Shown: piece by piece, positions 5,354-57,330 of the stretch | How positions within the stretch are numbered: the stretch's first letter is position 1 | How the letters are laid out: each line of letters opens with the position of its first letter | Assembly: GCF_027925305.1 (NCBI RefSeq) | Contig: NZ_BSDR01000001.1 | Location: 2,755,001 to 2,819,000 of the forward strand | Reading direction: 5' to 3' | DNA length: 64,000 nucleotides | Source of the DNA: Desulforhabdus amnigena | Lineage (GTDB): Bacteria; Desulfobacterota; Syntrophobacteria; Syntrophobacterales; Syntrophobacteraceae | Position numbers and translations under genes: made by a program | The notes under the pieces: model-generated | What the model saw: the letters and a program-made list of their open reading frames with translations, nothing else | Databases searched by the model: none | What the model was told of the DNA's origin: nothing

Positions 5354-5386
5354 TAGTTCATGGCTCATGGCTGAGGGTTCATGTCT
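5354..5386. repeat. CATGGCTCATGG-type dispersed repeat, left copy
   Basis: A run of near-identical CATGGCTCATGGCTGAGGG/TTCATG units. It is the inverted counterpart of the unit at 5682-5728, so the two flank the gene-free interval between the aarF-like gene and the SNF2 gene. Such ATGAGCCATGAGC-like runs are a known class of dispersed bacterial repeat. Confidence 0.6.
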
Positions 5387-5388
5387 TG

Positions 5389-5512
5389 TAAGTTGACATT
5401 GTCAGATTTCATCTGAACCACGGAGACACGGAGAACACGGAGATTTCATTTAAAGGTCTTTCTCTGTGTCCTTCGTGTCTCCGTAGTCCATGTGACAATG
5501 TCACAGTAAGCA
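5389..5512 (-). repeat. Family A palindromic repeat, copy 1
   Basis: An approximately 120-bp imperfect palindrome. Arms of the type CCACGGAGACACGGAGAACA (5418 onward) pair with TGTGTCCTTCGTGTCTCCGT (5465 onward). The outer ends are TGACATTGTCA (5394-5404) and TGACAATGTCA (5493-5503), which are inverted copies of each other and themselves near-palindromic. Further copies lie at 45447-45560 (same orientation) and 57230-57330 (opposite). All three are intergenic. Confidence 0.85.
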
Positions 5513-5615: not shown

Positions 5616-5681
5616 ACGTGTGAGCATGAAATGTGAAGGAACTCTTGCGCAGCTGCTTGGCTCATGTTTTCTCCATCTACA

Positions 5682-5728
5682 AGCCATGAGCCATCAGCTA
5701 TGAACTATGAGCCATGAACCATCAGTCT
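5682..5728. repeat. ATGAGCCATGAACC-type dispersed repeat, right copy
   Basis: Four tandem-like ATGAGCCAT/ATGAACTAT units, inverted relative to 5354-5386. The run reaches the stop codon of the SNF2 gene (5722-5724), so the coding sequence ends exactly where the repeat begins. Confidence 0.6.
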
Positions 5729-19197: not shown

Positions 19198-19516
19198 TTG
19201 CGAATTCCTCTTCTGCATATTCGACCTCACACATTGGACAAAATGCCCCTGAAAAATGTTGCTCCGGATCTTTATCAAGTATAACTTGTCCCCCTTACTT
19301 TGGCCTGGAAACGAAGATTCGGACGAAAGCTCCACTTTGCCGTCCATTCTCAGGGGAACGGCATTGAAAGACCCTTGCAGGGACTGCATTATGGTATCGT
19401 GATAAAAGAGGTCATATTAAGAAGAGAGTCCTGGAAAAGCAAGAAGCTAAATGCATTGCCCCCTCTCAAGGGATTTTTAGGATAAGAGAGAGAATTGCTC
19501 TTGAAATCCCCCATCT

Positions 19517-19625
19517 ACCATGGAGACACAAAGATCACAGAGGAATTCCATAAAAATTCCAAAATCTTCTCTGTGCCCTCCATGTCTCCGTGGTGAATAA
19601 CTGGATATTGGAATCCGCCAACTCC
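19517..19625 (+). repeat. Family B palindromic repeat, copy 1
   Basis: A CCATGGAGACACAAAGATCA arm pairs with CTCCATGTCTCCGTGG. The unit ends in GAATAACTGGATATTGGAATCCGCCAACTCC. Related copies lie at 40924-41008 and 53288-53371 and share the TCTCTGTGCCCTCC and TATTGGAATCCG blocks. The unit is similar to family A in its inner arms but has different ends. Confidence 0.75.
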
Positions 19626-19660
19626 CTAAAGTCCCCCTTTTGAAAGGGTATTGGGAGATG
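19622..19660. repeat. CCCTAAAGTCCCCCTTTT-type dispersed hairpin, copy 1
   Basis: AGTCCCCCTTTTGAAAGGGT folds back on itself. A similar unit occurs at 45600-45640 (CCCTTTAGTCCCCTTCGAGG). It belongs to a widespread class of short dispersed bacterial repeats. Confidence 0.45.
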
Positions 19661-40194: not shown

Positions 40195-40589
40195 CTTTCC
40201 TTCCAAATATGTGTGTATCCGCCAACCTTTCATCATCGCGCAGGCTGCCGGACTTCTGCCGAAATACAACAAACATTTTAGCATCTTCAGCCAGCGACGC
40301 GCACTCTATTATATTTTGACAATCCCAAAGCGCGTGTTAATATCTATTTAAAGCTTATCCAAAAGCTTCCTCCGTTCGTACTTCGATACTCAGCACGAGC
40401 GGGGTTGAGGCCAGTGTTTTAGGGGATAGGCTCTGAATGTGACAATGTCGAATTGAGGCCATGAAACGGGTTTTTTAGTCGGCATGAGTGCGCTCTGCGG
40501 CATAAACCTCCCCTTGAATAAACCGGTTCGGGTTTGTGAAAGGCGCTTGAAGTTCTCAACCTCCATCTTGAGCAGAGAAAGGCAGCCCG
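40195..40589. other. Intergenic region with a solo family A end
   Basis: There is no gene in these 395 bases. They include GTGACAATGTCGA at 40439-40451, matching the end motif of family A repeats, next to GGATAGGCTCTGA (40426-40438), which also borders family A copy 2. It looks like a leftover end of an otherwise lost copy. Confidence 0.4.
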
Positions 40590-40854: not shown

Positions 40855-40923
40855 TGAGTACCCCTTCAAGCCATCCCCTCATCCCGATTCAATTTCTGCA
40901 CTCTTTTCCCTCCCCTTTTCAGG

Positions 40924-41008
40924 AGGAATTCCATAGGAATTCCAAAATATTCTCCGTGCCCTCCGTGTCTCTGTGGTGAATAACGGGATATCGGAATCCG
41001 CCAATCCC
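40924..41008 (+). repeat. Family B palindromic repeat, copy 2
   Basis: Shares GGAATTCCATAGGAATTCCA, CTCCGTGCCCTCCGTGTCTC and ATATCGGAATCCGCCAATCC with copies 1 and 3. It lacks the upstream CCATGGAGACAC arm of copy 1. It is intergenic, between two small orphan genes, in a 484-base gap that otherwise contains AT-rich sequence. Confidence 0.7.
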
Positions 41009-41197
41009 TTCAGCATTATTCCCGGATCCTCTTGTGCAGAATGGATAAATTTTATCCAGGACCTCTAAATAAATGCACCATCTGAGTAATTTTTATCCAT
41101 CTACAGGGATCAAGAAAGCAAAATTCAACAAAAAACGGAAGCCAAAGAAACAAATATTATTATTAATCATAATAAGTTACAACCAGCAAGCTTCTCA

Positions 41198-44497: not shown

Positions 44498-45445
44498 GTG
44501 AATTATAAATTTTGCAGACAACGCACTACCGAACGCGAGGTGCGGTGTAAGGGGATAGGTTTGCATTCCGGCGCAAAGGTTTCCATGAAATTGAAACCTG
44601 CGCCTGCAAACTACGGGGTCAGATTTCGCAGAGTGGACATGTCCGGTTCCCCGACCATCATCGCACACTATCACCATGTAGTGGATACCATGCTGGCTAC
44701 CCGCATCGGGTTCAACGGCGTCACGGTTTCCACTGTTGAACATCTGATGGCCGCATTGCTGGGAAGTGGCGTAGATAATGTGCTGGTTGAGCTGGACGGA
44801 CCGGAAGTTCCCATATTCGACGGCAGTGCCGCTCATTATCTTGACCTCGTCCAGGAAGCCGGAACGAGGGAGCAGGGGGTTCCCTGCCAGTATCTCAAAA
44901 TCGAGAGGCCGTTTTACGTGCAGGAAGGGGATTCCTATATAAAGGCAGTCCCTTCGGAGCATCTCCGTGTCCGCTACACCATCGATTTCCCTCATCGCCT
45001 GGTGGGCCGCCAGGAGTATTCCTGGGACTTCGATACCGACACCTTCCGCAAGGACATCGCCAGGGCCAGAACTTTCGGCTTCCTCAAGGACGTCCAAAAG
45101 CTTCAAAGCATGGGGCTGGCTCAAGGGGGTTCTCTTGACAATGCCGTCGTTTTCGACGACTACAGGATTCTGAATCGGGACGGCTTCCGCTATTCCAACG
45201 AATGTGTTCGGCACAAGATCCTGGATTTTGTGGGCGATCTGGCTCTGACGGGAATGCGCATGGTCGGCAATTTTGAGGTGCATAAGGCGGGGCATGCCCT
45301 GCACAATCGCTTTCTGAAGCAGCTCATGACCAAGCCCGGATATTTCACAGTCCTGACCCCCGCAGCCATTCCCACTTGTTTTTTTCCATCCGCTGCAATT
45401 CCGACCTTCCTGGATCCCTTGCAGCAGGTGGTCAAACCTCTCTAA
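44498..45445 (+). CDS. lpxC: UDP-3-O-acyl-N-acetylglucosamine deacetylase LpxC
   Basis: A 315-residue zinc deacetylase that commits acyl-UDP-GlcNAc to lipid A synthesis; it shows the cell has an LPS outer membrane. All catalytic features are visible: STVEHLMAALLG (Glu and zinc His), RHKILDFVGDL (zinc His and Asp), KAGHALHNRFL (catalytic His) and the GIGLHSG N-terminus. The start is GTG 44498, behind GAGGAGG; no ATG start is available nearby. It precedes the DUF4390-ntrYX cluster by 380 bases that contain repeats. Confidence 0.95.
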   Translation: MNYKFCRQRTTEREVRCKGIGLHSGAKVSMKLKPAPANYGVRFRRVDMSGSPTIIAHYHHVVDTMLATRIGFNGVTVSTVEHLMAALLGSGVDNVLVELDGPEVPIFDGSAAHYLDLVQEAGTREQGVPCQYLKIERPFYVQEGDSYIKAVPSEHLRVRYTIDFPHRLVGRQEYSWDFDTDTFRKDIARARTFGFLKDVQKLQSMGLAQGGSLDNAVVFDDYRILNRDGFRYSNECVRHKILDFVGDLALTGMRMVGNFEVHKAGHALHNRFLKQLMTKPGYFTVLTPAAIPTCFFPSAAIPTFLDPLQQVVKPL

Positions 45446-45446
45446 C

Positions 45447-45560
45447 TTGACATTGTCGGATTTCATCTGAACCACGGAGACACGGAGAACACAGAGATTT
45501 CATTGGGAAGGTTTTTCTCTGTGCCCTCTGTATCTCTGTGGTTGATGTGACAAATGTCGC
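45447..45560 (-). repeat. Family A palindromic repeat, copy 2
   Basis: Starts 2 bases after the lpxC stop. Ends are TTGACATTGTCGG and TGTGACAAATGTCGC (one extra A in the second), with CCACGGAGACACGGAGAACA and CTGTGCCCTCTGTATCTCTG as inner arms. Same orientation as copy 1. The adjoining GAACCTATCC matches sequence beside the solo end at 40426-40451. Confidence 0.85.
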
Positions 45561-45599
45561 GCTCAGAACCTATCCGGAAATCTCTTGTGGACTTTGGAA

Positions 45600-45640
45600 C
45601 ACCCCCTTTAGTCCCCTTCGAGGAGGGAAGTGAAGGGGTG
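45600..45640. repeat. CCCTTTAGTCCCCTTCG-type dispersed hairpin, copy 2
   Basis: The ACACCCCCTTTAGTCCCCTT arm and the GAAGGGGTG arm pair. Related to the unit at 19622-19660. It lies in the 380-base gap between lpxC and DUF4390, which holds no gene. Confidence 0.45.
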
Positions 45641-45664
45641 TGTTCGCTGCCGCGGAAGGATTTA

Positions 45665-53251: not shown

Positions 53252-53287
53252 CGTCCTCTCCATTAGTAGAGACCAGAGATCGCATAG

Positions 53288-53371
53288 AAATTCAATAAGA
53301 ATTCCAAAACCTTCTCCGTTCCCTCCGTGTCTCAGTGATGAATAACCGAATATTGGAATCCGTCAACTCCC
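53288..53371 (+). repeat. Family B palindromic repeat, copy 3
   Basis: Contains TTCAATAAGAATTCCAAAAC, TCCGTTCCCTCCGTGTCTCA and ATATTGGAATCCGTCAACTC, aligned to copies 1 and 2. It lies between two small minus-strand genes. Confidence 0.7.
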
Positions 53372-53382
53372 GTATCGTCCAT

Positions 53383-53643
53383 TCAATGGACCGTCGGGGG
53401 CCTGCGTTCATCGTCCTCCTGAGGAGGTCTGACAATTCGGAGCTTCGTGTTTCCACGAACCCGCCCTCCCCTTCTTCCGATTCCAAGCAATTCTTTTCCC
53501 CAAATCCAGATATGAAAGAGGGGACGGGCGCTCATGCAAATGCCAATCCCTCCACTCACAAAACCGGCGTATAAATCTTGCACCACCATGAGCACACCAG
53601 CATAAATGAATGTCGCCCCCAAAAAGAGCAAAATAAAATCCAT
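53383..53643 (-). CDS. Small membrane protein
   Basis: An 86-residue protein. A first hydrophobic segment (FILLFLGATFIYAGVLMVV, about residues 3-21) and a second weaker one (FVSGGIGICMSARPLFHIW) precede a basic, Arg-rich cytoplasmic tail (GRRGGRVRGNTKLRIVRPP). GGGGAAGG precedes a cluster of ATGs; ATG 53643 is chosen. No family was recognised. Confidence 0.5.
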   Translation of the reverse strand: MDFILLFLGATFIYAGVLMVVQDLYAGFVSGGIGICMSARPLFHIWIWGKELLGIGRRGGRVRGNTKLRIVRPPQEDDERRPPTVH

Positions 53644-57229: not shown

Positions 57230-57330
57230 CTTACTGCGACATTGTCACATTAACCACAGAGATACGGAGGACACAGCGAAAAACCTTCAAATGAAATCTC
57301 CGTGCTCTCCGTGTCTCCGTGGTTCAGATG
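57230..57330 (+). repeat. Family A palindromic repeat, copy 3 (inverted, end-truncated)
   Basis: Starts with TTACTGCGACATTGTCACAT (compare GTGACAATGTCACAGTAAGC at the end of copy 1), followed by AACCACAGAGATACGGAGGA and CTCCGTGTCTCCGTGGTTCA. It diverges after CAGATG, so the other end motif is missing. Opposite orientation to copies 1 and 2. It lies inside the treZ-treY gap. Confidence 0.8.

Follow-up and report, generated by a model that had tools for sequence, protein, structure and literature searches.

A modular family of palindromic mobile elements and the association of its hairpin arms with genes for the predicted nuclease GxxExxY

Bacterial MITEs, among them the Correia elements and the TIMEs (PMC4133298), are non-autonomous and derive from DDE insertion sequences. 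The repeat described here, designated family A, was encountered in a 64-kb stretch of DNA (the window; bases 2755001-2819000 of a 4,536,740-base contig) and shares much of its construction with bacterial MITEs: a length of about 115 bp, the lack of a gene, terminal inverted repeats, a short target duplication, a palindromic sequence and many dispersed copies, most of which are intergenic. It departs from them in that both of its ends are near palindromes in their own right, its interior consists of a hairpin module common to other families and phyla, the arms of that hairpin cause loop inversion and end swapping, and no parent insertion sequence was found in the approximately 0.63 Mb of genome scanned. 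Insertion sequences of the IS5 group use YTAR targets, which the 4-bp NTAR duplication of family A resembles. This resemblance serves as a lead only; unlike the IS5 group, family A is not restricted to a pyrimidine at N (A and G occur), and it has no transposase linked to it. We know of no terminal inverted repeat that resembles that of family A.

The REP superfamilies are defined by a palindrome of 20-40 bp with an adjacent GTAG or CGTC tag, together with RAYT enzymes (PMC3733652), a definition under which they do not fit the repeats described here. Like REP and REPIN sequences, these hairpins are extragenic palindromes that occur in high copy number and in many phyla and, just as the RAYT gene is flanked by the repeats that it is hypothesized to move, arms flank GxxExxY genes. 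Unlike REP and REPIN sequences, the arms are built of three 8-9-bp words with no GTAG or CGTC tag noticed, the flanked gene encodes a predicted PD-(D/E)XK nuclease instead of a Y1 transposase, and family A has a target duplication. Family A, in turn, possesses the arms of the GxxExxY palindromic unit proposed below but not its gene.

Considered alone, family A is a further bacterial MITE, unusual in its nested construction. The presence of a cross-phylum, non-coding 25-bp arm beside genes of one nuclease family provides a lead to the role of GxxExxY, while the link between the two offers an explanation for a class of repeat common in environmental genomes. If it is true that GxxExxY moves the hairpins, these would be mobile elements driven by a type of enzyme that, to our knowledge, has not been described in such a role. 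The idea is directly testable, the gene being small and the unit 450 bp.

Family A copies and their target-site duplications

Inspection of the sequence bore out the three copies of family A at the positions claimed by the initial annotation, as well as its descriptions of the copy 1 ends (TGACATTGTCA and TGACAATGTCA) as perfect inverted copies of one another, of one copy as inverted and truncated (copy 3, 57235-57330, in which the left end proved to be missing), and of a solo end near 40441 (Table 1). The location of copy 1 likewise stands, while its boundaries, formerly 5389-5512, are corrected to 5392-5505 as set by the target duplication. The hairpin of this copy folds at -28.6 kcal/mol (z = -5.9). 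Copy 2 starts immediately 3' of the TAA stop codon of the upstream ORF, and this TAA belongs to the left CTAA duplication.

Table 1. Positions of family A and family B features in the window
Feature	Positions	Strand	Basis
Copy 1, left target-site duplication GTAA	5388..5391	+	Sequence, flank register test
Family A copy 1, outer ends GTTGACATTGTC / GACAATGTCACA enclosing the hairpin	5392..5505	+	Sequence, genome BLAST, 40-copy alignment, flank test
Copy 1, left hairpin arm CCACGGAGACACGGAGAACACGGAG (the cross-phylum arm)	5418..5442	+	Arm searches
Copy 1, right hairpin arm CTCTGTGTCCTTCGTGTCTCCGTAG	5462..5486	-	Arm search, folding
Copy 1, right target-site duplication GTAA	5506..5509	+	Sequence, flank register tests
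Family B copy, same arms, other outer ends and loop (boundaries approximate)	19485..19630	-	
Solo family A end remnant TGAATGTGACAATGTCGAATTGAG	40426..40455	not assigned (.)	
Partial family B copy, left end and arm (boundaries approximate)	40916..41010	-	
Copy 2, left duplication CTAA, holding the TAA stop of ORF 44498-45445	45442..45445	+	
Family A copy 2, missing from the syntenic interval of the same-genus genome G001	45446..45561	+	
Copy 2, right duplication, decayed to CTCA	45562..45565	+	Sequence
Partial family B copy, missing in G001 synteny (boundaries approximate)	53278..53383	-	
Copy 3, right-end duplication TTAC (GTAA on the - strand)	57231-57234		
Family A copy 3, inverted, without left end	57235..57330	-	Sequence, 40-copy alignment, arm search

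Beyond the window, copies of family A are dispersed through the genome in both orientations and have no coding capacity. At least 48 two-ended copies are present in the sampled part of the 4.54-Mb genome, and a whole-genome BLAST search gave at least 54 matches to copy 1 at E<=1e-3, with 40 of 183 candidates scored. This abundance is far above chance: YGACATTGTCR occurs 97 times in the genome versus 4 times for the reversed control, and the arm motif 271 times versus 27 for its control, the arms outnumbering the ends. The copies had been described as lying only between genes, which holds for most of them but not for 4 of 44, which lie inside stop-free frames of at least 120 codons (putative genes).

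Terminal inverted repeats of about 12 bp (CTYGACATTGTC / TGYGACATTGTC) bound both ends of 40-48 copies, and the consensus order in 40 aligned copies is NTAR-CTYGACATTGTCRGATTTCATCTGAA-CCACGGAGACACGGAGAACACAGAG-ATTTCATTTGAAGGTCTTT-CTCCGTGCCCTCTGTGTCTCCGTGG-TTAATGTGACAATGTCRCA-NTAR. The right end and the inner TTAA together make up a palindrome of approximately 23 bases, TTAATGYGACAWTGTCRCATTAA. The arm, approximately 25 bp long, consists of three copies of an 8-9-bp word (CACRGAGR), and the left arm is flanked on both sides by a 13-base word, GATTTCATYTGAA, as a direct repeat (for example at 5403-5417 and 5443-5456). This direct repeat looks as if a lone 24-bp arm had been inserted or copied.

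A target-site duplication, which the initial annotation had proposed to look for, was found in the form of a 4-bp NTAR repeat. Among 48 copies, the flanking bases at left -7 and right 0 match in 34 (17 expected, z 5.9) and those at left -4 and right 3 in 37 (23.3 expected, z 5.4). These are the best signals among 192 offset pairs, and both fall in one 4-bp register, with T and A nearly invariant between the two co-varying positions. In 40 copies, N matches between left and right in 29, versus 13.6 in shuffled flanks, and R in 31, versus 20.6; not one of 2000 shuffles reached the observed match for either position. Examples include GTAA/GTAA at copy 1, ATAG/ATAG at 1587663, ATAA/ATAA at 3012699 and TTAA/TTAA at 2997174. 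A 4-bp NTAR duplication is the signature of a staggered cut and family A is, therefore, a real transposed element. Its initial description as MITE-like is upheld by the duplication, the occurrence in both orientations, the dispersal and the absence from a syntenic same-genus genome, but was incomplete in that the element comprises two modules.

No match to family A was found in G001, the single same-genus genome. The syntenic segment of G001, approximately 75% identical, contains neither copy 2 nor the family B copy at 53323; its interval lacks the family A element, at an identity too diverged to show a single NTAR base by base. One decayed family A-like copy is present in another genus of the same family (L284:2653), and matches to the consensus elsewhere in the order and class span mainly the arms. 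The outer shell, consisting of the target duplication and the CTYGACATTGTC/TGYGACATTGTC ends, is nearly restricted to this genome.

Exchange of modules between families A and B

In this genome the inner hairpin, with its CCACGGAGACACGGAG.. arms, is also found inside a second family, B. The ends of family B differ from those of family A (AGGGAGTTGGCGGATTCCAATATCCCGTTATTCA ... TAAATGGGGATTTCAAGAGCGACTCACTCCCT; also AGGGAGTTGGCGG.../...GACTCACTCCCT in the window copies and in L289-L293), as does its loop, the arms being common to both. In two A/B chimeras, at L094:4884 and L098:4963, one side has the end and loop of family B, the opposite side has the end of family A, and the two meet at an arm. 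At least 10 of 44 family A copies have a loop whose orientation is reversed with respect to the ends, and one copy (L074:5001) has lost its hairpin. Given the chimeras, the inverted loops and the loss of the hairpin, the arms act as recombination sites, mediating both loop inversion and the exchange of ends between families A and B. The initial annotation had named a lack of the end motifs in most copies as evidence against a mobile family, and for the hairpin this was found in part: the majority of copies with arms are members of family B or are without the ends. Ends and hairpin are thereby shown to be modules separate from each other.

The interior of the family B copies in L286, L287 and L291 also has GC-rich inner hairpins like those beside GxxExxY genes. 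Inner hairpins of the form CCGxxCGGGAGxCGGxxxCGG adjoin arms in several genomes (L065, L066, L168, L172, L182, L227 and L228); their GGGAGNC loop is kept and their stem is variable.

The arm in other phyla and beside GxxExxY genes

The 25-bp arm pattern CCACRGAGACACRGAGRRCACRGAG occurs in at least 118 stretches from dozens of phyla. Among the matches listed are Planctomycetota, Acidobacteriota, Chloroflexota, Cyanobacteria, Verrucomicrobiota, Armatimonadota, Elusimicrobiota, Chlamydiota, Bacteroidota, Myxococcota, several proteobacterial classes and candidate phyla, and the loops and flanks of these hairpins are unrelated to one another. In the 118 stretches listed, 80 pairs of arms form short hairpins, 6 pairs stand 300-2500 bases apart and 96 arms are alone; two of the six wide pairs (L135 and L195) enclose a GxxExxY gene. 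Within an incomplete coverage of the full-text literature, arm 16-mers were absent and shorter strings appeared only in papers that, by title, are unrelated.

GxxExxY (PF13366, PDDEXK_3; TIGR04256) is a predicted PD-(D/E)XK nuclease that has been little studied, and the gene between inverted arms belongs to it unambiguously (E 1e-45 to 1e-48). Its conserved residues, D, ExK and QxxxY, form a pattern typical of RecB/Cas4-like nucleases. Read in frame, the arm gives HRDTEDTE, which we take to be what the amino ends of GxxExxY proteins carry; the protein at L135 contains HHGDTEDTEK. A comparison of GxxExxY with PDB sequences gave zero matches, and an AlphaFold model of the protein, built from a two-row alignment, had a mean pLDDT of 52, too poor for use. 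In the literature, the coverage of which was incomplete, no paper was found on the function of GxxExxY or on a link to repeats, and the only relevant mention concerned a GxxExxY domain at a place that a different tool annotates as cas4 (PMC8934634).

In this genome, arms are present at each of the two GxxExxY loci, and one of the two frames is interrupted by an arm-bounded insert (L228:1360-1900; genome 3724809-3725350). In the class and phylum, the arm consensus is found upstream, and its reverse complement downstream, at 12 of 56 GxxExxY loci. When the arm was not assumed, an iterated 6-mer common to both flanks and inverted between them was detected at 43 of 62 loci, the controls being 5.3% for random genome places, 20% for random arm-locus places and 19% for cross-paired flanks; about a third of GxxExxY loci are without any such common word. 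The words include CACAGAG, CGCAGAG, CACGGAG, CACGAA(G), CACAAA(G), CACTAAG, GCAGAC and CAGGATT, and the clearest loci have three words per arm.

The same layout of arm, gene and arm is found in Bernardetia, Bacteroides, Gemmatirosa and Sphingomonas records (Bacteroidota, Gemmatimonadota and Alphaproteobacteria) and in one viral contig, Bacteroides finegoldii providing the example TTCACCACAGAGGACGCAGAGGACACGGAGGAG-gene-CTCTGTGACCTCTGTGTCCTCTGTGGTGAA; the Treponema and Prevotella GxxExxY records examined showed no such layout. On a Sphingomonas parapaucimobilis plasmid (L326), the operon genes fabD and fabG stand on either side of a GxxExxY gene and its arm-like repeats, a placement that hints at mobility of the gene-bearing unit and is only suggestive. 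GxxExxY is rare in IMG/VR and PLSDB (2 loci, 8 records); neither viruses nor plasmids, therefore, seem to be its chief vehicle.

Among the 395 genomes of the phylum, 61 (27 families) are arm-rich, with at least 5 exact arm hits. As raw genome counts that ignore phylogeny and genome size, PF13366 is present in 52 of the 61 versus 89 of the other 334 (OR 15.9, p 4e-18), and Y1_Tnp in 55 of the 61 versus 233 of 334 (OR 4.0). Nine of the arm-rich genomes are without PF13366.

A two-layer explanation and its rivals

The shell bears the signature of transposition, the build is modular, and the arms are associated with GxxExxY both physically and genomically. The explanation that we favour, and consider probable as a whole, joins a two-layer family A to a parent unit of the form arm-GxxExxY-arm. 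The shell, delimited by its terminal inverted repeats, inserts into NTAR and duplicates 4 bp, as a staggered cut by a putative DDE-type transposase acting in trans would bring about. The arm-GxxExxY-arm units would be the parent mobile elements, moving autonomously or with the aid of host repair, and the short arm-loop-arm hairpins their non-autonomous, gene-less derivatives. One such hairpin may have been captured by a DDE-type MITE shell, which would then have been amplified in this lineage. Following insertion, the arms function as recombination sites at which loops invert and ends are swapped between families A and B. More tentatively, and with somewhat less than an even chance in our estimation, GxxExxY and its inverted iterated arms could constitute a new and very widespread class of mobile element run by a RecB/Cas4-like PD-(D/E)XK nuclease. 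The short hairpins of dozens of phyla, the family A core among them, would then be its non-autonomous offspring, and the word would change along with the protein. Provisionally, such a family of mobile elements is apparently undescribed so far.

In approximately 0.63 Mb of genome scanned, no transposase gene with family A ends was found, and all candidates for paired ends around a gene proved to be ends of separate copies or chance matches. The 23S rRNA intervening-sequence protein (PF05635) was rejected as a candidate, since neither of its two genes in this genome has arms.

The most serious rival, though an unlikely one, holds that GxxExxY is not the mobilizer: the hairpins would spread by errors of replication or recombination and by horizontal transfer of short pieces of DNA, with the nuclease settling inside them or processing them as a guard or homing passenger would. 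The predominance of gene-less hairpins (80 short versus 6 wide pairs, among the matches listed) and the inversion and end exchange mediated by the arms agree with this account, and RecB/Cas4-like residues could act on a hairpin or on replication intermediates. It accords poorly with the way in which the class of arm word tracks protein similarity, nearest-neighbour GxxExxY proteins having the same word class in 25 of 30 cases versus 15.6 expected and proteins of one word class being more alike (mean identity test, p 0.005). This tracking, together with the recurrence of the same compact gene and inverted arms in unrelated phyla, argues against a mere passenger or guard, as both are expected of a transmitted unit.

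It is very improbable that the hairpins are REP/REPIN-like palindromes moved by an IS200/RAYT-type HUH tyrosine transposase (Y1_Tnp). The genome does hold Y1_Tnp genes, four of them with identical scores, and one is close to a family A copy at 1594018, at a distance of approximately 0.2-0.3 kb; the arms are extragenic hairpins, and Y1_Tnp is somewhat commoner in arm-rich genomes. That association (OR 4.0), however, is much weaker than the one with GxxExxY (OR 15.9), and an arm was seen at only one of the Y1_Tnp loci examined (L050), where it belongs to the neighbouring full copy of family A, the other loci being without a flanking arm. HUH transposition produces no target duplication, whereas family A duplicates 4 bp of its target and is bounded by terminal inverted repeats. 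Visual inspection of the 40 aligned copies revealed neither a GTAG nor a CGTC tag at the hairpin base.

Least probable of all is the reading as fixed regulatory or terminator hairpins, or TGACAxTGTCA protein-binding sites, spread by ordinary descent: the ends are near-perfect palindromes and the copies mostly intergenic, copy 2 beginning at a stop codon, but the NTAR flanks co-vary from left to right, which fixed regulatory sites would lack, so that this reading is not the equal one that the initial annotation had allowed, and the copies occur in both orientations, the family is missing from the same-genus genome, loops are inverted and ends are swapped. A regulatory origin is disfavoured; the hairpins could be co-opted for a secondary use.

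Other repeats are found close to family A. Family C is a palindromic repeat, AGAGCCTATCCGGAAACC...GGATAGGCTCT, present in the window at 45563-45650 and in L018, L020, L039, L050, L074, L088 and L103; it often begins exactly where a family A copy has its right-end duplication (TTAAGAGCCTATCC). An IS200-type insertion (L050; genome 1594018-1594677) is located approximately 0.2-0.3 kb from a complete family A copy. Family D is a repeat rich in GCTCATGGTTCATAGCTCATGG, found at L084:5000-5290, in L087, L104 and L108, and in the window at 5360-5385 and 5665-5700; in L084 it is nested within the loop of a family A copy.
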